64,000 nt of DNA from Albugo candida (Eukaryota; Oomycota; Peronosporomycetes; Albuginales; Albuginaceae): NCBI GenBank assembly GCA_905220665.1, contig CAJNAR010000010.1, positions 335,745 to 399,744 on the forward strand, written 5' to 3'. The notes under the pieces are model-generated. The model made no database searches, was not told the origin of the DNA, and saw only the letters and a list, made by a program, of their open reading frames with translations. This document shows positions 5,124 through 49,904 of the stretch, one piece after another; within the stretch, counting starts at the first letter, position 1, and each line of letters opens with the position of its first letter. A program made the translations under genes and the position numbers.

Positions 5124-8100
5124 TTAGAAACACCCCGCATCACCGACTGAGCAATGTTGACGGTGTCGAACTTGAAGCAGGCTGGGCCGAGTAGAGAAAT
5201 ACCTCCTGGCTGAACCAGTGTGTTGATAAGACGTTAATACTTGTGTCAACTGCTCGAGCTGCTCCGTATCATAACACTGCCGTTGAAAATATCGGATATG
5301 GGCACTCAGTGTGCTATAAATCACCGAAACAGCTGGGGCAGTTGGCGTCGAAGTGCCGTGGGCGAAAAGTCTGCGATTCCGATCCGTCCAAATAAAATGA
5401 ATCGTGACCGCGACTAATGGAAACCAAAGATCCTCCAGCACCACCCGAAAAGGCTTCCACGCATCACGAAGTGCAGGAAGCCGTGCACACGCGATGTGTG
5501 ACCATCGCGGGCGAACAGAAAAAAAGATTGTTCACGACGGAAAGAGCTCTTCCCATATAGGACTTGTCCTGTTGCAATCAAAAAACAAATGCTGGTAGCT
5601 TTCGACTGCACCACAATGCTTATGAGTGCACAGGATGATTTCCGGATGTGATTGTTGTAAAAACCAAAATCGTGCCCGAACTGGTAGGATACAGAAGGAT
5701 AGTCGGAACTGGACATCCGAATAGATCGGTAGAAAACGTCTGCGAAGACGTTTGAATAACTTGTAAAAATCTTTCACCCATGTTGACGTCCCACTTCGAT
5801 CACGTTCTGATACGTGAAGCAACATTGGGTGGGGTTTATTCGGTGGCAATGCCTTCCCAACAACGCGATAAAGGTTATTTCGAGGTATCATCGGAAAGAA
5901 AAACTTCTTGTCCGAGAGTTGAATGCCAAAATGAACCGGATAAGCGTGTGCCATTTCCCTTACGGAACAGCGTAATATGTCAGCAGGTTGAGCTCGTCGC
6001 AGAATTTGCGTTGCTTCGACGTGCAACCGGCGTAAAGACTTCGATTGAGACTGATCGGGCGGCTGCCCAACCTCCGTTGTACTAAAACGCAAAATGAATT
6101 CGAGATCATAGGCGAACCAGTCCGTTCGTCCGCCAAACAAGTCACGTAGAGACCGTATTTTAAACGCTTGAGCGAAGCGCATCCGAAAACTACGCGCTGG
6201 TTCGGGCACCATTCCCAGACATCGACGATGAGCAGAGACACTCGTGGACCGTCGTCTCTTCTCAAAATGCAGATGAGGGTCGATATGAAACCATATGGGA
6301 GCATCCAACATCATGAAAAATCGCTCCTGTTGTGATAGTTCTTTGTCGGTAAGATCCCAATGACTTTGGTGGAACGAAATACAGGTCTGCTTCCACCATG
6401 GTGACGCTATATTCCAATGCACCATGGTACTATGCCGACGTGGTGATATCGTGAGGATATCGAGTGATCGATATGGCCCAAAATTGGGCAAGATGCATCG
6501 TGTGATCCATTCCAGGAAGTGTCCACCTGCTGGGTAAAGCCGTACTAAATGAACTAGAAATTGTTGTAAAAACTAAAAGCGTTGTTTCTTCAGCTGTTTT
6601 GAGATAAGCGGAACCTGAAAACCACCCTCTGAATGAGGTAGGTACAAGAAGTCCGACTTGATCAGTTGAACGTGTGTTGAATCGCGCTCATACTTCCGAC
6701 TCAAAACGAATCGATTGAGCATCGATTGCCAGCGTCGAACGAAATGCTGCGGGATGTTGAAATGAGTTGTAAGATGCCATAAACGTGATAACACCATAGT
6801 TTGTGCCACCAGTAATCTTCCACGAACTGTTCTGGCTCGACGAAACCACTGACGGAATCCACCATAAAAACGATCTTCTAAGAATTCGATCATCAACTCA
6901 CCAACGGGTGATTGACTGAATGGAACTACCAAATATTTTACCGACTCGCTCGGTGAGAGTACTTTCACATGTGCAAGCGGTTGACCTACGTGGTGTCGAT
7001 TCAGTGGGAGCAAGGTGGACTTGGACAAGTTAAGCTTTGCTCCTGAACCATCGCAATACCTCTGGACGATCTCGAGCTGCGCCTCCACTCCACTGAGCGA
7101 AGACGATAACAATGTCGAGTCGTCCGCAAAAAATAAACTCGTTGCTGTATTCGTTGGAGTGATGCATATTCCAGGTCCTTCATGCCTCCGCAACAAATTT
7201 CCCAGCGGCTCAATCGTCATGAGAAATAGCAAAGTGGACAGTGGGTCTCCCTGTTTAACACCCCTCGACGGAGTGATTTTTGGCGAAAGCGTGCCATTCA
7301 GCAACAACGATACAGTCGTGTTGGTGTACAGAAGCTTTGTCCACTGGATGAAAGAATTTCCACACTTCATTTTCGATAAAACTGCAAACATGTACGACCA
7401 ATCCACTCGATCGTACGCTTTCTCAAAATCGAGAAATGTTGCGTATGCTTCTTCATCACGATGAGTGACTAGATCCTGCAGATCACTCATATACCGAATG
7501 TGATGATGGATGGAACGTCCTCGCAGAAATGCTTTTTGGTCCTCGTGGATCAATTTCGGAAGCACATGCTGAAGTTGGTACGCGAGTACCTTCGACAGCA
7601 CTTTCACATCCACGCATATCAAGGCAATTGAACGATAGTTACCAGGATCAGCACGGGATCCTTTTTTGTATAGCAACGTGATTGCTGAACTACGTTGAGA
7701 ACGCAGCAAAGAGCCTCGACGAAGATGGTGTTCGAAGACAAGTTACAAACATTCACCAAAAACACTCGGAGCGAGTTGGTAGAAAGCTGCCGGCGATCCA
7801 TCCATTCCAGGTGACGAGTATCCACGCATCCTTTTTATTGCTTCTTCCATCTCCAGTTTGGTTAATGGAGCGGACAAAAAGGATTCATCAGGGCTGGACA
7901 ATGTTTCTGTGATCGAGTGAAGCAATGTGTGTTGTTGTGTCGCGCATGGACGCAAACGAAGTCCAGCTGCACTTTTTGGATCTCCCATGATACCACCCCA
8001 GTGATCTGTGAACTGAAGAGTGATATCAATAGGGTTCGTTGAGACTTGTTCATTAGGAAGTATAACTTCTTCCAAGGGTACACGATGACAGGTTGAGTCC

Positions 8101-9501
8101 ACTGGCCGAAAGAAACGGCGAGTTGATTTCTCCATGTTGTTCAAGTGGTAATCGAACATGGAGTCTTGATTATACTTGGACGAGCTCCTGACCCTGTCAT
8201 GATAAGAGCGAAGTGCGTCTTCGTACAGCTTCTGTTCTTGTTCTTGATGGGATTGTCAAAAGGACGCTGCAGCTTCGTCCAACTCAGCACGAGCGCGGGT
8301 GACATCCAAATCTTCCTGTCGACGATCTTCTTTTAAACTTGCTGTAATAATTTTTTGTCTGCTTCTTCCAAGTCTCCCAGTCTGTTCCAGGATGAGAGGA
8401 AACACGAAGCTTTGCTAAGATACGATCCGCCTCCTCCTCGATCGCTTCTTTGATTACTGGATAGTCGAATAATGATAAAGGACATTTCCAATAACCACGA
8501 CCATGGAGTAGAGATGGATTTGCGAACTTTACAACATGATCCAGATGATCACCCGTGTGTGGGAGTGAAACGTAACTGGACTCCTTGCACACTGACTGGA
8601 AAAGAGGTTCCGACAAAAGGATGTAATCCAGCCGGTTTTTCCTGGGGTGGGGGCCAGTAAAGATACGTGCTTCAGGATGATGTTGACGCCAAGCATCCAG
8701 CACACCCAAGTTGGAAAGCCATTCCAAACATGAGAGGCGACTTGTCTCGTGCCTATATACACCACTGGAGCAATCCAAACTGGGACAAAAGGCTGTGTTC
8801 AAATCGCCACAAACGATGTGCGTTGCGCTGTGTTCAAAAGATCCCGTTGGAAGTTGATCGAAAAATGTTTTGCGTTCCGCTGGATTCACCGGAGCATAAA
8901 AGTTATGGATATATACTGGAGCTCCAAGAATCGCCAAACGTACAACCAAATATCCGTCGGGTACGGAGACAGAGGTAAGAGCTTGTGCAGAGTCAGATCC
9001 GGGAAAATCGTGACGAATAATTGTCATAACCCCGTTTACTCGTTCCCTAACGGGATGAGAGTGAAGACTATTCGAGTCACTGACAAAAAGATGATGTCGG
9101 AATGGGAAAGCCAAGTGAAACTGAATAGTCTCCAGGTGGTGACGGTCGCGAAAATGAGTTTCTTGTACGCAACAAATAGCGTATTTCGATAGTGTGCGTT
9201 GTATCAATAGATGACCATTCTTTTTGATTCCGTTTGTATTAACGGAAAGAACGGTTTGATTTGTCCACGAAAGAATGTCGGTTGAGCTGCCCTTAGTATT
9301 GAACTGAAAGGGGTCCAACGACGAGTTTTTCAACTCCGTCTTCATTCTAGAGCTGTAGTATGAAAGCTTCGTCGGTAAGAAGAAGGTTCGACGACTGTAA
9401 CTGCACCAAGTCATCGAAAATTGGACTCTCCCACTTTGCGTCAAACCACTCGCTGAGACAAAGTGTACCCAGTGGTGAGCGCAAAATGTGCAACAACACA
9501 T
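5124..9501 (-). pseudogene. LINE-1 ORF2, endonuclease-reverse transcriptase, frameshifted
   Basis: The element would nick target DNA and copy its RNA there. Frame 8284-9501 is an APE-type endonuclease with VNTNG, QET, FYAPV, GDLNT, NRLDYIL and the terminal GDHLDHV. Frame 7743-8159 is the linker into the reverse transcriptase (SSPGMDGSPAAFYQL). Frame 6573-7709 holds the RT palm with DQKAFLRGRS, FLDFEKAYDRVDW, GVKQGDPLS and the catalytic FADD. Frames 5532-6491 and 5124-5444 contain the C-terminal knuckle (HCGAVESYQHLFFDC) and tail. The domains are in the right order but in different frames, so at least three frameshifts separate them. The catalytic residues themselves are preserved, suggesting moderately recent inactivation. 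Confidence 0.85.
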
Positions 9502-11761
9502 TCGTGTGAAGCAGACGGCAGTGGTGAGTTGGAATCCACAACACCGGCTGACCAGTAACGTATTGAATCCAGTGGTCGCTATGATATATTGCTGGTGCCG
9601 TGCACATAAACATTAGCTCGAAGAACGAGAGGGAGTATGTTGCACGTGTCAATCCTTCCACTTCCACTGATGTAGTCCACCAGTTGTCCACCGTTTCAAG
9701 CATATTTTTCCGAACGGCCGAAACGTAACCACCGACTTGCTTTGACCATTTTTTGCTGAACGTGGTATCCGAGTTCGGCTCGGATGCTGCAAGTATACGG
9801 TTTATGGTGTGTATTCGAACCACTTGCTACGATTTAGCACTCCATGCAGTGCAATCGGATGGTCCAGGGCAAAGTGAAGAATGCTGTCTCCGTTGGAGGT
9901 GAAACCAACATGCTTGCTTGCTTTGGCCACATGAACATCCTCTTCCAATAAAGTATCCGGTCTAGGGGGAGTTTGAGCTGTTTTCAAATCTTGAATCAGG
10001 AAGTCCACCATCTCTGCCACTCGAGTAGGACGATCGTCCTTTTCGATTCGGGTGTGGTTTTTCTCCATGAAATGAGACGCTTCTTTGGAATTAGCCAGAT
10101 CATTTTTAACCACGAGCTTGGATGGTACAATCTGGTACCTCTTTCCAAAGTCGCCTTTCGTTGTTACGTCGATTTTCCGAAATCCACGTCGACCGAGCCA
10201 AGCACATTAAAGTAATTGCTTGTAGCAAAACCTTCCAGCGATTTTGAGGGGCATTGCTTAGTAAACTCTGAAAGCGGTCGAGCGAGCGATTGCGCTTGTT
10301 GCGTGGTCGAACTGGAGTCCACGTATCCACAGTAGACTGTGACGATGCTTTTTCTGCAAGTTTTTGTTCATTGTCGTTGACATCCGGAACAGCAGAAGGA
10401 ATATCCTGTTGGGATGGATCCGAGTTGGGTAGTTCGGAAACGTTTCCATCAGCGACATTTCGAACAGAAGAGACTTTACGAGCTGGAAGCTTGTTTGTGG
10501 GACTTTGTTCAGATACTTCAGGCATGTTTACGTTGATGCTGTCTGGTTTTTGTGGCCGTTGGGACTTCACGGGCTGACTTTCAGCCGATGTAGCCGATTT
10601 GGTTTTTTTGTGCCGATTCGATTGAGGAGTGTTCACCGGCAGCAGTAAGCAGTGCGGACTGCGCCGACCCATCCTCAACCGGGAGGGGAGAAGCTTTTCC
10701 TCATGCCAAGTAGTATCTCCCCTCGATACATATTTGCTCACACACTTTGCCGCCAACACTGAGCTACTCAGGACAGCTTGTGCCGCAAAAGTACACTCTC
10801 CAAGTCGACATGGAAAGTCTTCTGGAAGCCACTGCTTCGCGAAAATTCTCATACAGAACATCGCAACCAAGACGATGCAATGACGACGCAAGTTTTAGAG
10901 TGGACATTTCCGGTCCAATTCCGAAAATATCCAAAAAGAACGTGAACCGAGAATATCAAATTCTCGGAAGGAGTAGCTGTTACCGAGAATCCTTACTTTT
11001 TCATTGGCCAATCTCTGGCAGACTTCCTCTTCGGTAACAAGTAGTCTCAAATTACCACCAGGTAATTTTGCCAATTGGCCAATTTTTTCAGCTTCAAAAA
11101 GCTCCTCGACTATCACATTACCATGATCTCGAACAAAAGATTGCAAAATGTGCGCTGGTGGGGTTCGAACCAACGCTTGTCCAGTCTCCAATACAACCGA
11201 GAATTTGGCGCTCGGTAATACGAAAGGTTTGGCTGCAGTTAAGTGAGCAGACAAAACCTCCCAACCTGGACGGCCCTCTTCGAACAGCTTTTCAATTGCG
11301 CGTAGATCCGACGCTAAAGGCTTGGGCATTTCAACCTTCCAGGTTGTTTTTTTAGCCGCTTTATCCTTGCGGATGTCCTCATGACCCTTCAGGATATCGG
11401 CGAGACTTGGCCGATTACCGGTTTTCTTTCCTTGCTCAACCGGTTTCCGAGGTGCTGACGGCGACGCGTCATCCACCTCCATTGCGACTGGCTGATTGGC
11501 AGGAATTGGAATGGGAGAGAGAGGTGGCTCAATCTCCATATCGGCCTCTGATTGGCCAATGACCACGGCAGCCGGTAAAGGGTTGGACGGGATAGGTGAG
11601 GACGTGGGTGCATCCTTTACAGGTAACTGGTCACTAACGGACGAGTTACGAGGAGACGATTGACCCACATCCGGTGAGGTAAGGGACAAGTTGTTAGGAT
11701 ACGGGTGGTCAGCATCCGGTGAGGTGACGGAAGGAAGGCTTGAGATGTCAATAGAAACCAT
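9347..11761 (-). pseudogene. LINE-1 ORF1, RNA-binding gag-like protein, frameshifted
   Basis: The start is set at the ATG at 11761, because the first residues (MVSIDISSLPSV) match those of LINE-2 ORF1 (MVQVDISTQPSV). The N-terminal third is Ser/Pro-rich. It is followed by a conserved block (KPFVLP...ETGQALVRTPP) and an RRM-like segment around SFREFDILGSRSF. The protein then shifts frame near 10891 and again near 10110. The last part (GLTRATYSL...HWIQYVTGQPVLWIP) matches LINE-2 closely. It presumably coats element RNA. The function is inferred from position and the LINE-2 pairing, not from a named domain hit. Confidence 0.65.
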
Positions 11762-11830
11762 TATCTTCGACAGGGTAGAAAGTTTGTTGTATTTTGTTTG
11801 GCAGGTACGGAACAGCTGGCAATTAGAGAA

Positions 11831-11908
11831 GTGACCGTCGGGGGGCTTAGCGGATAGTACACATGTATTCCGACCATGTGTGCCCCGGTTCGAATCCCGG
11901 CGGTGGCA
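11831..11908 (+). tRNA. tRNA-like sequence, probably pseudo-tRNA or SINE head
   Basis: The ends GTGACCG (11831-11837) and CGGTGGC (11901-11907) pair with one mismatch. A long anticodon-type stem, ACACATG/CATGTGT, encloses nine bases including TTCC. A good box B (GGTTCGAATCC) is present, with one mismatch in the T-stem. The D-arm pairs poorly and the anticodon loop is too long, so a working tRNA is doubtful. It sits head-to-head with the 5' end of LINE-1. Confidence 0.4.
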
Positions 11909-12144
11909 AAAGGGCTGCGATGGGGCCCCTCGGCGGAGGTAAAGATTCCTACACGTAAATATCAACCTACTCAATGAAGATATGGACGTGTCAAGACCGC
12001 TGGCAACTACACCAGAAAATAACTGTACAGGAGTTGGACCGGGCTCTTCAGAGCGTTACATACTAGTGATTAGAATAGAGTAGATAACCACCAAACTGTA
12101 CTAACAGAACGGTGTCTAAATAAAAGTACTACGGGCGAACACTC

Positions 12145-16574: not shown

Positions 16575-19042
16575 CCTCATTTCACCATCTTCTTTCGAGA
16601 GGTGAAGTGTTGCTTTCTCTTCAGGGAAAAAACTGAGATTGACTGAGAGCTCGCCGATATCGCCACAGAGAAGTCCTTGCCATTTACCACCAAACCATTG
16701 CGACCAACACTTTATGCCCACGTCGGAGCGTAACAACAAGATAAGCACATTGATGGGAGTAAACGACAATGGTGACCCGGAATCCAGATCACTGGTCTAT
16801 CGGTGAGATAGTGGATCCAGTGATCGTTTGTGTAAAATGTCGGGGCAGTAGACATAAATAACAATTCCACTAATGCGAGAGCTTTGGTCGCCCGAGTCAA
16901 ACCGTGAACAGTGTCCGGCACTGACTTCCACCAAGGCATGACTTTCTCGAACAATACAGCTCTCTTGGAGGGAACTTTGCCACCAACGTGGCGATTCCAT
17001 CGCGTCGTGAATGTGACATCTTCGCCGAGATTGTGCGCTGCAAAAACGCGATTGATGAGAAGTAGATGTGCTACTTCGTCCAACGCAGGATCATTCGACT
17101 CCATGCATGAAATAAGCACCCCATGCATGGTGATGGGATGATCTAATGCTGCCCGGATGATTTGGTCCGGGTTAGTACAAAATTGTACCAGCCTACGCAC
17201 ATGTGGGATGCACGCATCGGCTTGGACCAGCTTGTCCGGTCGAATCTGGTGAAGTGCATTTTTGCATTTCCATGAGCTCTCCGATTTCACCAATTCGAGT
17301 TGGTCGCTCTGCTTTTTCCACCGTTGTATGACGCTTCTTATAAAAGTGTGCCGCCTCTTTCGAAGTGGCTACCTCTTTTGGCATCCGTGCTTTCACGGGA
17401 ATAATTTGAATGCGATTGCCATGCGCCGGATTGGCAACCGCTTGAACTTCTTCGACGTCCACCTCCATGGTTGCGAGCACAGCAAAGTACTTGCTTGTCG
17501 CCAACGCTGGGAGCGCACGAGGTGGTGCATTGGAAACCATTTGGTCGAACGGCTCAGTCCGATTACGCTTTCCTCGCGTCCATGCCAACTGCATGTATCT
17601 ATCACCATCCTTCTCCACCCGTGGATGCGAAGATGATTGACTTTTCAAATGTAGGATGGGGGGAGTGGGCTGTGATAAGTCTGGCGACCCTGGTGGTGTG
17701 ATAGAGGGAGGAGTATTGAGCTCCAACGAAATTTGGTCGGAGTGTTTTCGCTCCGGTCGCTTCGCCTCCAATTCCTGACTGGGAACTGGCTTCTCCACCG
17801 TTTGTGGGACCACCGCGACTGTCTTTGGCGTGGTTTTTTGTTTTTGTTTTGCTTGTTGCGGTTTTGCTTGTTTTAGGTACTGATGTTGAGTTTGATGCGT
17901 GTTTGGTTGTTTTGTTTGTTCTTTTTGTTTTCGGTTGGTTGTTGCCGTGTTCCCAAGGCTAATGCAGCACCCAAATCCAAGCAGTAAGGACCACGTTGAC
18001 CAAAACGTGGTCGTTCCGTTGGAATAGGAGCATTCTTACCCCGTACTGGGTAGAGCTGCTTGTCGTAAGCGATTTGTTCAATCACTTTACCAACTCGAAC
18101 CAGTTGTAGGGGGCACGTCAAACTACCGAAGTAAACTCGCCAAGTCGACATCACCACTTCCCTAGTGGGAATCGTCTCGCGGAAGGTGTCATACACCACT
18201 TGACATCCGGGCTGGTGAAGAGCGCGGAGAATGTTGGTCCGTTCTTCCTCCACACCCACACCGAAAACATCGAGGTAGTACTTTGTTTCAAGAGTATCAA
18301 ACTCCCGAAAAAAGTACTTTTCCCCAAGGATAGTCACCGGCTGACACTCCAACTGTTGGCAGGCATCCGCTGTGGTGACCATCACCCTGATGTTTCCCCC
18401 AGGCATTTTGGATACCTGAGCGATGGAACGGCTCTCCAGTAAACTTTCAAAAGACCGGGTTGCCGTGGTCTCGCATAAGGGAGGATAAAATTTTCCCATT
18501 TGGAGTACGGGTCAAGGACTGGCCCGTCTCCAACACCATTGGAAAGGTTGCTTTCCGGATTTGAAAAGGTTTTGCTGCTTCCAGTTTCGCAGACAACACT
18601 GACCAATCCGGGTGCTCCCCATCAGCATACAGCTGCAGTATAGTCTCGATATCCGAGGCTTTCGGCTTTGGGAGCTCCACGCGAAATTTCGCCCGAGCTC
18701 TAGCCTGGTCCTTACGCAAGGACTCCTGTGACTTGATCAGGTCAGCAAGTGTGGGACTATTAGTGTCGTCCACACTTGCAATTGCAGTTTCCTTTGGTTC
18801 ACCCTGTGACGAGGCAACGGCAGTACCACATGTACCACCGGTACTGCATCCTACACCGGTAGTACCGGTATTACCCTGTACCGTCACACTGGGGTGGGGG
18901 TACTTTCCACGTCATCACATAGGGGTGATGACTCATCAACAATCATGCAGTCACCCAAAACAGGGTGACTCATGAGGGTTGCCACGTCACTACAAGTGGA
19001 CGCTAGAACACTGGGTTGTGTCGATATGTCGACTTGAACCAT
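16575..19042 (-). pseudogene. LINE-2 ORF1, gag-like protein, frameshifted
   Basis: The ATG at 19042 starts MVQVDISTQPSV and runs about 55 codons to a stop. The adjacent frame then continues at 18447-18887 (TLADLIKSQESLRKDQ, FRVELPKPKASD, LETGQSLTRTPNG). Frame 17873-18499 carries the RRM-like part (GEKYFFREFDTLETKYYL) and a conserved GCQVVYDTFRETIP block. Frames 17193-17813 and 16712-17293 give the Pro/Ser-rich linker and the C-terminus (GLTRATKALAL, HWIHYLTDRPVIWIPGHHC). Order and text parallel LINE-1 ORF1, so this is the element's RNA-binding protein, disrupted by several frameshifts. Confidence 0.7.
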
Positions 19043-19135
19043 TGTTTTCGAGAGGAAGGAGTTGAAAAAAGTTGTTTTTTCGAGTTGTTTTTCCTAAATT
19101 GGCGGGTTATTTAGTAGCCGGCAAATTGAGAAGTT

Positions 19136-36383: not shown

Positions 36384-37926
36384 GTGCATTGTTTAGGTTT
36401 TAGATTGCTAAGTACAGTAATTGTTACATATGAATCTCCAGCAAGCCTTTAGTGTTTCGATCTACACCATCATCAAAATGTCAGACAGCGGAGTAAATAG
36501 GTCTTAGACACTTTGATTCACTAGTAAGAGCAAAAGCTAACCAACTTGTGTAATCTCGGAACTTCTTGTCAGACCTAGGCATCGCTGTGGTCTTCCCTTC
36601 CACATAGAGACAGTGAAGTATCTGTGTGATCCTTCGGATGTGTCGTTATGTGTTGAAAAACAGATTTATAAAATAAAATAAGACTGCAAAACCTAATTTC
36701 TTTATCAACTTTATTTTGATTCTAGCCTAATATGATTACAGCTCTCAAAATATAGGAACCGATCTTGTCTAGTCACGCAGAATTCTGGATAGATCAGAAA
36801 CTGCCACCGAGTTATCTTGCGAATGTTTTGTGGCTCATTCCTCGGGGGTATGGGTTAATCTTCGGCGTTGCGATTTCCTGCTTCGACAAAACCTTGAATC
36901 GTAAAAACGGTCCTATCCGTGACGTTTCCCACGAATGCTTTACGTCAGGATCTGAACAATACAAGATGGAATAATAGAGAACGACAATTCAATATATGTT
37001 GTGACATACCTTGCTCTAAATAACGCTGTTCTTGACATTATAAATAGTTTCGCACTCGTTCCTAGATGGCTGATGGATGTGATACCGCAGCCTTTGAGAT
37101 GAGTTCATGCGTCTGCTGTCCGCCATCCTTCGGTACCACATCACTCGCACTGCAACTCCACAGTATTTCACTGTAAGAAATTATACAAGGTGAATATGCA
37201 CAAAAACTAAGTGAAGTATATGTTTACCTCTTTTTTTGTTCTGGCGATATTCCAATGCCTCAGTGCTGACTGGGGAAACCTGAGAGCCCCAAATGAGCGC
37301 ATGTGTCTACTATCTGAGACTCTCATGCACCGGTCAGCTTTTGAAATGGTAAAGGTATAGCAACTCTCGGAGATCCGTTATAGAAAGTTACAATTACCAG
37401 CTGTTAACGAGCTTCACACTCACATCAGTCAACATTCCATAGTTTGTAATATTATTGAATTTTTCTATATTTCTACCATATCTTAAACATAGAAAAGCTG
37501 AGAGGGTTTTCTTTTATTTCTTATGTTCTTTCTTGATCTAATCATATGCTTGTAGCTTATAAATGAACCTCACAAACAACATACACTGTCTATGACTGTT
37601 TTTCTCTATAGTGACCACGAGTGTAGAAAACGTCCCTTTGCAACAGACTGTTCGGGTGTCCCCCCATGGGGAAGGTACGTACGGTTTGGAATTTAGCCAA
37701 TAAGTGACCATAGAACGCAAACTTTATACAAGCGGGCATATGACAGGTCAGTACAACTAAACATTGTGACGTGTCTCAAAAGTGCTCAGCTGAAACAGTA
37801 TTCATATGCCAGTTTCGTGATATAATCATGTAAAAGCGACTGCGTTAGCATCTTAGAAATGTTTATTCAATTATCACACTGTGTCACTTCATTAAAGTGT
37901 AATCTATATAATATAGTACTTCATAA
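36384..37926. other. No gene seen
   Basis: Short frames at 36765-36974 and 37538-37720 have no recognisable content. The composition is A+T-rich and repeat-poor to the eye. Confidence 0.35.
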
Positions 37927-38474
37927 GTGTAACAGGGTTACACGTCGGTTAGTAACCGTTATGCAGTGTGCTACAAATTTGGGACGCTTTGGGTTATTGG
38001 CTTTGGGAGCTGACGCGTGTCAGCCACCGGACATTAGTACCTAGGTTAGGTACGTTTAGCGTAAGGTACCTTTAAAAAAATAAAAATAAAGAACAGTTCC
38101 CCTTTTGATCAGTTAAAGACACGTGCCTGCTTCAGGCGTCTCAGATCTTGTGCACTTTGTGCTGTGTTATCGATTCCCTGAATCATTAGGTCTCTTGAAC
38201 AAGGACCTTGAGCTTTAAAGCTTGTTGACTCATTGAGTCTAGTTCTTTTAAGGAACTAAGTTGCTCGTTGAGCAGATAGCCTTCCTCTGGCAAGGAGCTA
38301 AAGTAGCTCCGCTACAATTGGGTTTGGTGTATGCGAAGTAAGTCGGCTGGTAAAGTGTATTTCTCTATAATATAGTGTATTTGAAAATCATAAGGTTTAT
38401 GTGTATGCAGTAGTTCACTTTAAGCTGTATAAGAAACGGTTACCTCTCGGATAATCCTTCCGCATTAAGCGGAA
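37927..38474. repeat. Array of short perfect hairpins, mostly three-base loops
   Basis: At least twelve separate inverted repeats fall in 548 bases. Stem / loop / position: 7/AGG at 37927; 5/AGT at 37946; 6/GCGT at 38009; 7/GGT at 38037; 5/CTT at 38125; 4/TTT at 38152; 5/CCT at 38172; 5 (nested) at 38188; a 12-base palindrome at 38211; 5/ATT at 38227; 5/7 bases at 38241; 5/GTT at 38262; 7/AAG at 38294; 6/ATTAA at 38458. All listed stems are perfect. The sequence begins GTGTAAC, and a GGTTAC near the end is loosely LTR-like, so a solo LTR is one possible identity. No coding frame spans it. Confidence 0.7.
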
Positions 38475-40047
38475 ATGTGTTTTTGCCGGTCTAAACGATT
38501 GTACCAAATGCCTCCCCAATCTCGTCTTCAGGTTAAATCCATCCGCACATTACAGAAATTCTGTCGCGTTTGCATCGCTTGTCGGCGAGTACAGCGTCTT
38601 CAAGCAGCTGTATGGAATGCTGCAGCTGGACAAATACACAAAGATGTTGGCGGAAATACGCTGCTAAACGTCGTGCGGCAGCCTATCAGCAAAGTTTCAT
38701 CGTCATTCGAGCTCACTGTTGAGTTTTTCACACGCGAAAACTCCAAAAAAGCGACCACAAATTCTTTATCAGAAATTTGCTTTGAAGATTCCGCGTTTTT
38801 ATGTATAGAGAGTGGCATTCACGAATGTTTCCACGCTCAACGATTCTCTGCGGCTCGACTCATCCAATTTTGATAGATCTCTAAACTCTGCACAAAGGGA
38901 TACCGTCATCGTCGCATAATGGCAACAAGTCGAGTCGGTTCCGAGCCACACAATGAAGTCCTCCTTCACGAAATCGCCCGATTGAAAAATCTCTGGATAC
39001 AAGACGCAACTAAAGCTTTGACGCACGAAAGCAAAAAGCTGGATCCTTCTTACAAGATCAGTCAGACTCAAGCAGCAGAGCTTTGAATCCCACGATCTAT
39101 GTGAGAGCGAACGAGAGCAATCGCAGCAAGATTAGAACCCATCCAACGGATGACCAGGATGGCATTCAGCTTCCCAGTCGTAAAATTGACGATTTGACAT
39201 TGAAATGCGATTTTTTGAGATTTACTGTCGAAGAACGGACACGAGACAAACTTGGGTGGAAATCATCGAAACTTATTCGACACTGAACGAAAATTCACGC
39301 AGTTTCATGACGTTCATGTACCTCCAGAGAGAACCTCAGAGATCTTGTAGGAAATGCATATATAATGAAAGTCATCCTGCAATCGTTAAACAATCGACCT
39401 TATCGAGATCGAGAACGTTTAATCGATTCGGTGTCGAGATCTCGACCTATTCGAACGTATTCGGTGTCGACGTTCATATCATTTAGTCAGGATCCTTGCA
39501 CCGAGCTGGAAGTAGAGCGTGAAGAAACTGACAAAAAACAAAACCGAGAAGAGTAACGATGGGGACACGACCCAGCACGCTAATGCATAATCGTTAGACG
39601 AAGCAAATGTCCGTTCATCTGATTGTGATACAAATTCCCCCGTGCGTTTGAGCGAAATCACAAGCTACAATTGAGCTGTTGATACAATGAGTAGCAGTTG
39701 ATCTCCATCGTCCCCGAAACCTCGCGACACTTTCGAATATCAAAGTAGGCACTCAGTTCGAAATGTTACGAATATCACCAAGCATTCAATCTGTTTGTTG
39801 GGCGTCATCATTGCCGGCTCTGTGAGGACTCATTCTGCCACGGTACATGCTCCTTCTTTTACTACTTTCCGCTCGTTCATTCCTTCTGTAGAGCAATCCA
39901 GTCGACGTGTCCCGCTGATCGCTACAATGTATGACAATGATCCAGTTCGAGTATGTGACAAGTGCTATGCCGAATACCAAATTTTTCGCATGCAGCAAAT
40001 GTCAGCTGGAATGAGTCACACTCGCTCCTTTATGCGGCAGACGTAAC
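38475..40047 (+). pseudogene. Relic of an IQ-motif / FYVE-finger protein
   Basis: The first frame (ATG at 38475, directly after the last hairpin) has an IQ-like stretch: IRTLQKFCRVCIACRRVQRL. It is followed by helical text around 38930-39240 (HNEVLLHEIARLKNLW). Near 39785-39980 a FYVE-like zinc finger is visible across two frames: VGRHHCRLCEDSFCHGTCS and then RVCDKCYAEYQ. FYVE fingers bind PI3P on endosomes. Oomycetes combine FYVE with myosin or START domains, so a myosin tail is a possible source. The R(R/K)HHCR core is present, but the inner cysteine spacing is damaged and frames change repeatedly. Confidence 0.4.
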
Positions 40048-46299: not shown

Positions 46300-49200
46300 A
46301 GGATATTGGAAATGTTCATTACGACTGTTTGAATATCCTCAAGTTGTCGAAGCAATCCAATTAGAAGCGACTTTGGTGCTCGAACAGTTGCGGATAACTT
46401 CGAATCTCGGACAATGTGGGAAAGTTGAACGACGAAAATCAAGACACAGCTTCAACGCATCGAAAAAAAGTAAGCACAAAAAAGTCCTCCTGATGTTAAG
46501 TCTATCCAGCGTATTTCAAAAGTCGCAGCAGCTCGATGTCGCAGTCAAGACACCAATGAGTCCCGATATTTTTACGAATCGAATTTTGAAGGAGTCCGAA
46601 TTTCGTTCGAAAACCATGGCAAATACAACGAAGATGATGAAAGATTCGCCCGTTACGTGAAGCATATGGAGAACTCTTTCAAGCATTTTTTTCGTCATCC
46701 GGGTTAGTTCTTGTCGTCGCGTGCCGATCGAAAATGTCATCAAAAAATGTGGCACCGTGATATCGAACCCGAGGGAGATTATTGACGAATTCAGAGATCA
46801 TTGGGGTGGTGTCATGGGCTTTCTTTATAGCTCTGAGACCGACTCAACTGATCCATATGAAAAAAAAGCAAAAAAAGTTACTCGATTCGATTCAAGTTTC
46901 CCTTGCCTCAGCAGAGCAAGACCGTCTCTCAACTCGCTTAAGTACGACCGAGATGGCGGAAGCGATCAAGCACATGTGGAGTCGTTCTTCTCCAGGTATG
47001 GATAAAGTACCAGCTGCATTCTATCAGCTTGATCCGGAAACGTTTGGTGCGTGTCTGAAGATCGTGTTCGAATATCAGCTGAAAAAAGGAATTTTACTTC
47101 GATCACAACGTCACTCAGCAATCACACTTTTATACAAAAAAGGATCACTACGTGCTCCTGGCAACTATAGACCGATCGCACTGCTTTGCGTCGATGGGAA
47201 ATTACTATCAAAAGTGTTGGCGTATCGATTTCAACAATTTTTGCCAAAATTAATCCATCAAGATCAAAAAGCATTTGTGCGAGGAAGGTCAATGCATCAC
47301 GATATTCGACAACTCGCTGACATTGAAGACTTGGACACTCATCGTAGGGTGGAAGCGTATGCGACTTTTCTCGACTTTGAGAAAGCTTATGATCGAGTCA
47401 ATTGGACGTACATGTTTCGCGTTTTGGAAAAAGTGGGTGTTGGAAAAAGTTTCATTGACTGGGTTCGTCTTTTGTACCATAACACAAAGGCGCAGTTGAT
47501 AATCAATGGAAATATCACACCGTCCATTACACCACAACGTGGAGTGAAACAAGGTGATCCTCTCTCAGCATTACCTTTCTAATGACGATCGAACCTGTGG
47601 GAAATCTACTTCGACAACATGAAGAATATGGCATTTGGATTAATGGCACGACTGTCGCAACTGGATTATTTTTTGCGGACGATCGACATTGCTTTCAGCG
47701 ACACCAAATGGTGTTTTGACGCAACTCGAACTCGTCCAAGTCTATTGCGATGGATCGGGTGCGAAAATCAACTTGAGTAAATCATCTTCGTTCTCGTTGA
47801 ATCATACCAAGCCATGTCCACGTATTCCCAATTTGACCATAATGGGTCCGGAGGATTCGGTTAAGTATTTGGGTATTCCGTTCGGCCAGACACCGACTCA
47901 TTCGATGGTTATCTCAACTCTCGACAAGCGTTTTTACGATGGGTTTGGTGTATGGTTTCGACGAGCACGAACTGTCCGTGGTCGACTAATGATTGCGCAG
48001 ACGATGATTTTATCACGTTTGTGGCATTATACGATGCACGTAAATATACCAGCAGAGACTATTCGACAATGGCAATCGATGTTAAATCGCTTTGTGCTTG
48101 GTCGGAAACACATATCTTCGCAGACAAGATGGTGGACTACAAGTTCCCTTTTTGGTGGGACGACTAAAGCTACAACGTATTCAATTCCTTCAGCAGTTCG
48201 CATCCGATGCGTCAACAAGTATTCCTGCGAATTGGACAACTGCTTCGACGGAATTATTACAACTTATCCAACCTTCCTTTGGACCACACAAGCCGATGGA
48301 TATATTCACCATCGCACCAAATCGACATGGGAAAACGATTCAATGGGAGAGCATGTCGTCATGGTGGAAACACGCATTTAAAATGTGGTATCAGATGGAT
48401 TGGAGCATTTCAATATCAGATTTGAATGTTTCACAACGCCTTCAGTACTACATGGAACAACCGATGTGGTTTCACTGCGACTACAAGTTACATTACGAAG
48501 CTGCTACTCGCCATCCGAGTACGCAAAACGGTTGGTACAATCTTGGCATGGTGGATAAACCACATCGAACATTTCGGAAATCGTTTGCTACACTTTTCGA
48601 CTTTCGAAGTCTGCAAGACTTTTTCCGGGAAAGCGACACATGGCCAACGAAGGAAGATTACGTCGCCAACTTTTACAACGAGAAGAACTAAACACATCGC
48701 ATATGTCTGAAGAAAAGTTGCTGAGTCGACTTTACAATGAAGTCACTCAGATACTCCAGCGTCTCCACTCGACGATTGGTCTCATCACTTGGATTACACC
48801 AACCACAAATGGCAGATCATTTTATGTGGGAGTAAAAAGAAAGGAAAGGAAACATCATTTCCCATCTATTCCACGCTCACAACTCTCACGAATCGTCTGG
48901 AAACCTCCCGAACAAACCAAGAGTCATCCGATGTCGACACATTGGTCAACACGGGAAGAGATCGGACGCACTGGATCCAGAACGAGTTCGAACTTTTATG
49001 GCTAGATCACGGCAACTTCGGAAAGGTGTATTACCAATTTTCGAAGATTTAAAGTTTCGTCTAGCCTTTCGAATGTTGCCAGTTCGATCTCGTTTCTGGT
49101 TCTTGAAGGATATCCAGTCCGACATTATATTGTGCATGCAGCCTTCGTGTGGGGCAGTGGAATCTGATCAACATCTCTTTTTAGAGTGCGATCACACGAC

Positions 49201-49551
49201 ACAGTTATGGAGGGAGTTACTACCTAGTTGGGATCCGTTTTTCTCCTCTCGACCACGTTGGACGCATATTGCATGTGCAATCGTACCAACACTACGGTCG
49301 GATTGGAAAGATTATTTAGCAATTATATCAGATTTATGGCTTGCATTGCAAGTGGTTACTACACCACGTTTAGTGCGCACGTTCGGTACTGTCGAAGACA
49401 GTGGTACGACCAAGAGCAACGCATTTGGCTTGCAAAGGTGCTGGATCAACTCGCAACGCAAGGATCATTTGGTAGATTATTCAGAAGCCGAAGATCATTA
49501 CTGCGGGTACGGCGTAGACAAGTCAAAATACAAATGCAGCTCAGATCCTAG
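46300..49551 (+). pseudogene. LINE-3 ORF2, reverse transcriptase and zinc knuckle, frameshifted
   Basis: Frame 46782-47582 carries the RT fingers and palm start (SSPGMDKVPAAFYQL, LLYKKGSLRAPGNYRPIALL, DQKAFVRGRS, FLDFEKAYDRVNW, GVKQGDPLS). It stops just after SALPF. The catalytic FADD (near 47670) is followed by a one-base shift that destroys the next residues. The frame resumes at 47689-48381 (CDGSGAKINLSKSS, YLGIPFGQTP, RRARTVRGRLMIAQTMILSRLW). The thumb and connection follow in 48092-48691. The knuckle (CMQPSCGAVESDQHLFLECD) and tail lie in 48998-49551. Domain order is complete from RT to the C-terminus, but the frame is broken at least four times. Confidence 0.8.
46705..47230 (+). repeat. 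526-bp tract identical to LINE-2 (14824-15349), inverted
   Basis: This is the partner of the LINE-2 tract. Left of TAGTTCTTG and right of TATCGATT the two copies differ at once (for example TCAACA against GCAGCG). Confidence 0.8.
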
Positions 49552-49904
49552 TCCTAGTTGGATGGCATTATTCCGCCTAGTGTGGTGCACCCCAATTTGC
49601 AAACCTCGGTACTTTTGGACCATTTTTATAATTTTACAACTTTACAACTTTACAGCATTTCACAAGCTGGACACAGTCTCGTATTACGGTGGCTGTGGCT
49701 ACTGCGATACGGGATTGTCAACGAGAAGACATATAATCATCTCTCACAAGGTATTTCACGAAACGTTTTTTATATGTATATATGTTATTTGAGATAGCCT
49801 AGGCAACTAGAGAAGTCAGTTAGTCTAATTCTAGTAGTAATATTGACACCTTCAATTGAACAGAAAAGAAACAACTCGCTCTTAATCAGATTCAGACATT
49901 CACA

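Follow-up and report, generated by a model that had tools for sequence, protein, structure and literature searches.

The window considered here is a 64,000-nucleotide stretch of the Albugo candida genome, and at positions 37927-38474 it holds a crowd of small hairpins, most of which close a loop of three bases. What kind of sequence carries such an array, and how did its hairpins arise? The array itself, claimed in a preliminary description of the letters, is real: perfect stems of at least 4 bp with a 3-base loop number 13 in this stretch (2000 dinucleotide shuffles give a mean of 2.4 and at most 10), and those of at least 5 bp number 10 (mean 0.61, maximum 5). In neither class do any of the 2000 shuffles match the observed count, so shuffled sequence does not yield the similar counts that would speak against an array. 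With a stem of at least 5 bp and a loop of 3, this is the densest spot of the 64-kb window, having 9 hairpins in 390 bp where the runner-up has 4. All nine of the loop sequences named in that description are present, as are the seven near-adjacent hairpins that it placed at 38172-38310 (38172-38184, 38188-38208, 38211-38222, 38227-38239, 38241-38257, 38261-38275 and 38294-38310). When 37927-38474 is folded as RNA the z score is -3.59, and none of 100 shuffles is equally stable. The hairpins used, to which no strand is assigned, leave out H5, which overlaps H4, and include H10 in shortened form:

37928..37942, no strand: H1, 6-bp stem, loop AGG, contains the 5' terminus of the long terminal repeat (LTR) described below
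37946..37958, no strand: H2, 5-bp stem, loop AGT
38009..38024, no strand: H3, 6-bp stem, 4-base loop
38037..38053, no strand: H4, 7-bp stem, loop GGT
38125..38137, no strand: H6, 5-bp stem, loop CTT
38152..38162, no strand: H7, 4-bp stem, loop TTT
38172..38184, no strand: H8, 5-bp stem, loop CCT
38188..38208, no strand: H9, stem with one bulge
38211..38222, no strand: H10, 4-bp stem, 4-base loop
38227..38239, no strand: H11, 5-bp stem, loop ATT
38241..38257, no strand: H12, 7 pairs, one of them G-T in the window copy, 3-base loop
38261..38275, no strand: H13, 5-bp stem with an outer T-G pair, loop GTT
38294..38310, no strand: H15, 7-bp stem, loop AAG, overlapped by an alternative hairpin at 38303-38315 with loop TCC

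The stretch from 37928 to 38316 is almost certainly a solo LTR, what remains after a Ty3/Gypsy (Metaviridae-type) retrotransposon recombined out. This identification follows from repeat copies, paired LTRs, an empty site, and gag, RT and integrase domains, and together with the TG...CA ends these lend strong support to the LTR option among those first suggested. The extent first given to the array is correct in part: 37928-38316 is the repeat unit, and the hairpins at 38365, 38389 and 38458 sit in its right flank. The features of the locus are the following:

37928..38316, plus strand: solo LTR, 389 bp, TGTAAC...GCTACA, boundaries set by the genome copies and the paralogous empty site
37923..37927, no strand: left target-site duplication ATAAG, from the empty site in L027
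38317..38321, no strand: right target-site duplication ATTGG, 3 of 5 positions identical to ATAAG and presumably decayed, from the empty site in L027
38085..38090, plus strand: AATAAA, candidate polyadenylation signal

A search of the organism's own genome with 37700-38700 gives 45 match rows, nearly all of which end at 37927/37928 and at about 38316-38321; 40 of the 65 candidates were scored, so that copy counts are lower bounds. Among the scored candidates, the best other copies are 91-92% identical over the full length. Perfect 5-bp target-site duplications, picked out by eye rather than systematically from 50 match rows, occur at L002, L005, L006, L008 and L032. The empty site is a paralogous stretch in L027, which matches the window up to CATAAG and then continues with the sequence found to the right of the LTR. 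This right flank matches three places, none of which is an element interior. Other LTR copies are paired in direct orientation about 6-8.5 kb apart: those of L021 (1148-1538 and 7367-7765) are 92.9% identical, and direct pairs are also found at L022, L023, L024 and L025. Several right-hand (3') LTRs are preceded by a candidate polypurine tract, GGTGGGGGAGAG or near variants, and several left-hand (5') LTRs are followed by CTTGGTAGCACTTG-like sequence, a putative primer-binding site.

The sequence between the paired LTRs encodes, in broken frames, gag, protease, RT, integrase and SH3_Tf2-1 domains (PF03732, PF19259 Ty3_capsid, RVP_2, RVT_1, Integrase_H2C2, rve, SH3_Tf2-1). Against the PDB, the integrase finds Ty3-G gag-pol at 1.3e-30; its closest relatives, among the best 120 of 1173 proteins with E <= 0.001, are oomycete proteins, including one of Peronospora effusa with 83% identity over 81% of the query. 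The family thus resembles the oomycete Ty3/Gypsy elements known through their integrases from P. effusa and Phytophthora, in gag, protease, RT, H2C2-rve integrase and Tf2-1-like SH3 as well as in TG...CA LTRs and 5-bp duplications. A tRNA-derived element was considered and rejected, since searches of the window, L021 and L024 yielded no tRNA. One further locus, L026 (G000:C7), has two LTRs in inverted orientation (1014-1408 and 5359-5753) with identical flanking letters, which points either to inverted duplication or to an error of assembly.

The hairpins are very probably not a property of the LTR as such: LTR and coding interior alike carry a several-fold excess of exact Watson-Crick short inverted repeats with loops of 0-6 bases. 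In 34 aligned LTR rows, all related and some partial, stems of at least 5 bp with these loops number 289, against 73.8 in shuffles; with loops of 8-14 the count is 82 against 66.6. For the interiors of L021, L022, L023, L024 and L025, exact 5-position stems with loops 3-6 number 93, 84, 86, 78 and 84, where shuffles predict 24.8, 22.7, 23.0, 24.9 and 33.2, giving ratios of 3.71, 3.74, 3.13, 3.75 and 2.53. With the five copies pooled, the excess starts at 4-bp stems, which are about twofold enriched at loops 3-5, and 5-bp stems reach 5.6, 3.0, 3.6 and 2.3 times expectation at loops 3, 4, 5 and 6. At loop 7 the ratio is 0.8, and across loops 7-20 it scatters around 1 (0.7-1.7). A single element, L024, has roughly a hundred hairpins throughout its length, and hairpins are spread over coding sequence and LTR with no preference of position. 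Eight open stretches, two of which share about 100 bases in different frames, contain 85 hairpins (33.6 expected from synonymous codon shuffling, 27.2 from codon shuffling) with no preference for codon phase. Gag and integrase account for most of the coding excess. In RT, which is the best conserved of the coding pieces, there is little (2 vs 1.6 and 6 vs 3.4), and in three of the eight stretches loops of 8-14 also exceed expectation (11/5.3, 8/3.2, 6/3.3); both observations count against the copying origin proposed below.

Outside the element the excess largely vanishes. In 62 kb of the window there are 304 exact 5-position stems with loops 3-6 (281.8 expected), flat across loops, and the masked flanks of 19 other copies have 301 short-loop hairpins (272.2), with loops 8-14 equally raised at 282 (250.9). 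A host-wide property is therefore rejected, window remainder and masked flanks both being near chance. Of the further Gypsy loci, L049 does not depart from chance (ratio 1.03), and L050 (1.30), L051 (1.31) and L048 (1.31, with a telomere-like array) show mild excess. Older, more diverged relatives of the hairpin-rich family, L052-L055, have lower ratios of 1.89-2.17, and the distant L056 has 1.26. An excess common to every Gypsy family is contradicted by L049, and by L048, L050, L051 and L056 with only 1.26-1.31; because of the values for L049 and for L048, L050 and L051, the excess is seen as strongest in the family of the window LTR and may extend beyond it. L049 and L051, which have no strong hairpin excess, belong to a different Gypsy family with LTRs of about 180 bp that start with TGTAAC and are followed by similar GGTAGCACTTG. 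In L048 the array (5843-6351), at the end of contig G000:C3, consists of TTTAGGG-like repeats. Viral contigs and bacterial and archaeal genome contigs searched for relatives gave pattern matches and no confirmed relative.

A second retroelement in the window carries the same signature. Positions 17901-19100 (minus strand) lie upstream of an Exo_endo_phos frame and form the 5' part of an element from an abundant LINE-like family (336 candidates, 40 of them scored, 87-94% identical). This region has 27 hairpins with loops 0-6, where about 7.2 are expected, with stems of up to 9 bp; loops of 7 or more, and the remainder of the same LINE, are near background. For loops 3-6, exact stems number 27 vs 5.7, whereas stems with one G-U pair fall below chance (3 vs 6.7). 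Across 22 copies of the region the excess is confined to hairpins found in at least 5 copies; rarer ones are at chance (22 vs 21.2 in one copy, 11 vs 10.0 in two to four), which counts against copying. Two other retroelement-like stretches of the window are 5532-12055, with an Exo_endo_phos frame at 8287-9612 (minus) and a hairpin ratio of 1.43, and 46701-49800, with an RVT_1 frame at 46761-47579 (plus) and a ratio of 1.23.

Comparison of copies should reveal whether hairpins are kept or newly made. The expectation that other copies would conserve the pairing is borne out in part: for 75 named pairs among 34 LTR copies, with the structure derived from one copy, 90.7% of cells are paired against 29-42% for slid controls, but compensatory change is not convincing. 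Changes on both sides of a pair number 11, within the range of the slid controls (7-16). The covariation score of 0.075 exceeds that of the slid controls (at most 0.038), as is expected when the structure is derived from one aligned sequence. The alternative states that at least 3 LTR copies carry are A-C 11 times, G-U 7, other 7 and Watson-Crick 2, and the pairs are not kept between subfamilies of the LTR. Diversity is 0.134 in LTR stems and 0.158 elsewhere; in the interiors, short-loop stems differ at 0.120 per site and chance stems at 0.151-0.153. In a stricter clade comparison stems change as chance stems do (0.057 vs 0.059), and a fixed-site clade comparison has 28 and 3 comparable hairpins, too few for use. 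Hairpins that have changed and are still perfect make up 26 of 409 with triloops and 21 of 2318 with loops 15-39, in pairwise copies that are not independent. Private hairpins that need at least two changes number 52 vs 36.0 in the Gypsy copies, and clade-specific hairpins 8 vs 1.6 in one clade, where two of the eight are one TACG simple repeat, and 4 vs 3.0 in the other. The evidence for new births is thus weak and mixed, and the comparisons fit both the making and the keeping of hairpins and do not decide between them.

Four explanations other than the copying origin have to be weighed. Chance or an artefact of composition, which could be invoked on the grounds that the arrays were chosen by eye and that mild excess occurs elsewhere (the 1.30-1.31 of L048, L050 and L051, and 1.43 at 5.5-12 kb of the window), can practically be dismissed: for LTR and element it is refuted by the 0 of 2000 dinucleotide shuffles that reach the count and by the longer loops which, as an internal control in the same sequences, are near chance. 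A host mutational or repair process, rather than an enzyme of the element, might be responsible for the short exact inverted repeats of retroelements, acting on their DNA or RNA, or a genome with that property might have been the source of the element. The presence of the signature in two unrelated retroelements, the Gypsy family and the LINE 5' region, would suit this idea, but its absence from the window remainder, from the flanks of the 19 copies and from L049 makes it improbable. Selection for RNA structure would keep the genomic RNA folded into many small hairpins, in the manner of RNA viruses, whose genome-scale ordered structure is an excess of structure along the whole genome, coding regions included, or as packaging or dimerisation signals. 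It is consistent with the fold z of the 548-nt stretch, with an excess that grows with predicted stability and is carried in large part by synonymous codon choice, and with the mean fold z over 150-nt windows of three elements, which is -0.83, -0.85 and -1.03 in sense against -0.02 for L049. The antisense strands are equally structured (-1.04, -1.37, -0.92), however, and the flanks of L022 equally negative (-1.48), which makes fold energy a coarse measure. Stems common to at least 3 of 6 copies, with chance taken from loops 8-42 and scaled, are enriched 5.3-fold when Watson-Crick (88 vs 16.6) and only 1.41-fold with one G-U (33 vs 23.4), 1.27-fold with one A-C (21 vs 16.6) and 1.37-fold with another mismatch. 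Below -4 kcal/mol, Watson-Crick stems are enriched 3.3-fold in sense and 3.55-fold in antisense, and G-U-bearing stems of equal stability 1.55- and 1.56-fold, an antisense G-U being a sense A-C. G-U does have small advantages that suit selection on RNA and count against the copying origin: raw added G-U exceeds added A-C in all five interiors, the first outer pair is G-U 112 times and A-C 76 times, and double-G-U stems are enriched 1.1-1.4x vs 0.8-1.25x (6 positions). We conclude that the enriched quantity is exact complementarity, not RNA stability. Because G-U stems hardly surpass their A-C mirror and both strands behave alike, selection for folded RNA looks unlikely, and genome-scale ordered RNA structure is rejected, with sense equal to antisense and only a small residual G-U advantage. 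The structured non-coding RNA suggested for the array is also abandoned: between 36000 and 41000 no match passes the gathering threshold of an Rfam family, both-side changes are no more frequent than in slid controls, and pairing among the 34 copies is barely better kept than the surroundings.

Selection at the level of DNA would act on an element that needs many small exact hairpins in its single-stranded cDNA or duplex DNA, for example in nucleocapsid binding, strand transfer or integration. Exact Watson-Crick, strand-symmetric pairing speaks for it, interior stems vary somewhat less than chance stems, and the lack of visible births among the LINE copies fits hairpins that are ancient and kept. 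It is nevertheless doubtful: LTR stems are hardly more conserved than their surroundings, among the states present in at least 3 copies those that break a pair (A-C and other) are as common as those that preserve it (G-U and Watson-Crick), the stricter clade comparison finds stems equal to chance stems, and the hairpins cross coding sequence and LTR without preference of position. The origin that we prefer, tentatively, is mutational, the array being an old footprint of hairpin-templated copying, with reverse transcription as the putative maker. In an active lineage, the growing cDNA end would sometimes fold back on itself during reverse transcription, prime the synthesis of a few bases on the strand already made and then return to the template. 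Such quasi-palindrome correction would turn chance inverted repeats of 3-4 bp into exact ones of 5-8 bp; changes tolerated by the proteins would accumulate, and once a copy was dead its hairpins would decay. Copying of this kind could proceed slowly, or could belong to the past. Fold-back copying is suggested by the exact pairing, strand symmetry, tight loop limit and indifference to codon phase, and by the fact that two unrelated retroelements share an excess that their surroundings hardly show; the lower excess in older, more diverged copies supports it. It gives no reason for the loop limit at 6 bases, which counts against it. The hairpin-copying process first envisaged for the array is therefore retained as the preferred origin, changed to cover the whole element, and unproven, births being weak and mixed. 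More generally, and with slightly greater reserve, reverse transcription may have altered some retroelement lineages of this oomycete step by step, leaving along the whole element, in coding and regulatory DNA, a strand-symmetric footprint of exact mini-hairpins with loops of at most 6, common to the Gypsy family and the 5' region of the LINE, that is new to the literature searched.

Known systems resemble this signature in part. Like the ordered structure of RNA viruses, it runs the whole length of the element, but it is strand-symmetric and makes little use of G-U. Fungal mitochondrial double-hairpin elements are side-by-side hairpins with short loops; the window hairpins differ from one another, are nuclear and form part of an LTR retrotransposon, and nothing in the nuclear sequences analysed points to the mitochondrial elements. 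In yeast, according to PMC8604942, DNA polymerases switch template between short inverted repeats, and quasi-palindrome correction makes the arms exact, coding regions included; the events are single, with arms of at least 7 bp and spacers of up to 70 bp. Exact arms and a short spacer are common to both systems, whereas in the retroelements described here arms of 4-8 bp with spacers of at most 6 are present in standing excess, with the events themselves not caught. In Ty3, as described in PMC11381356, the 5' end of the genomic RNA has six palindromes, one of them functional in dimerisation; these are short and near the 5' end, and in the window family hairpins number about a hundred along an entire element (L024). 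The literature searched, largely open-access and covered in part (including PMC5348765, PMC8604942, PMC3601003 and PMC11381356), yielded no description of element-wide short hairpins.

If the signature is a footprint of copying, hairpin statistics would allow the history and fidelity of reverse transcription to be read from dead copies, and fold-back copying would be able to mould coding sequences in their entirety; should selection be the cause instead, the signature represents an unusual constraint on a retrotransposon at the level of nucleic acid. Under either origin, plain LTR annotation would miss the excess, and screens by eye or by folding will take such elements for structured RNAs. 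Two insertions among the LTR copies may be recorded here: L019, L020 and L031 have one in common that resembles an imperfect hairpin, and in the LTR of L037 (881-1278) another forms a new 7-bp triloop hairpin, AAGATAC-cga-GTATCTT.
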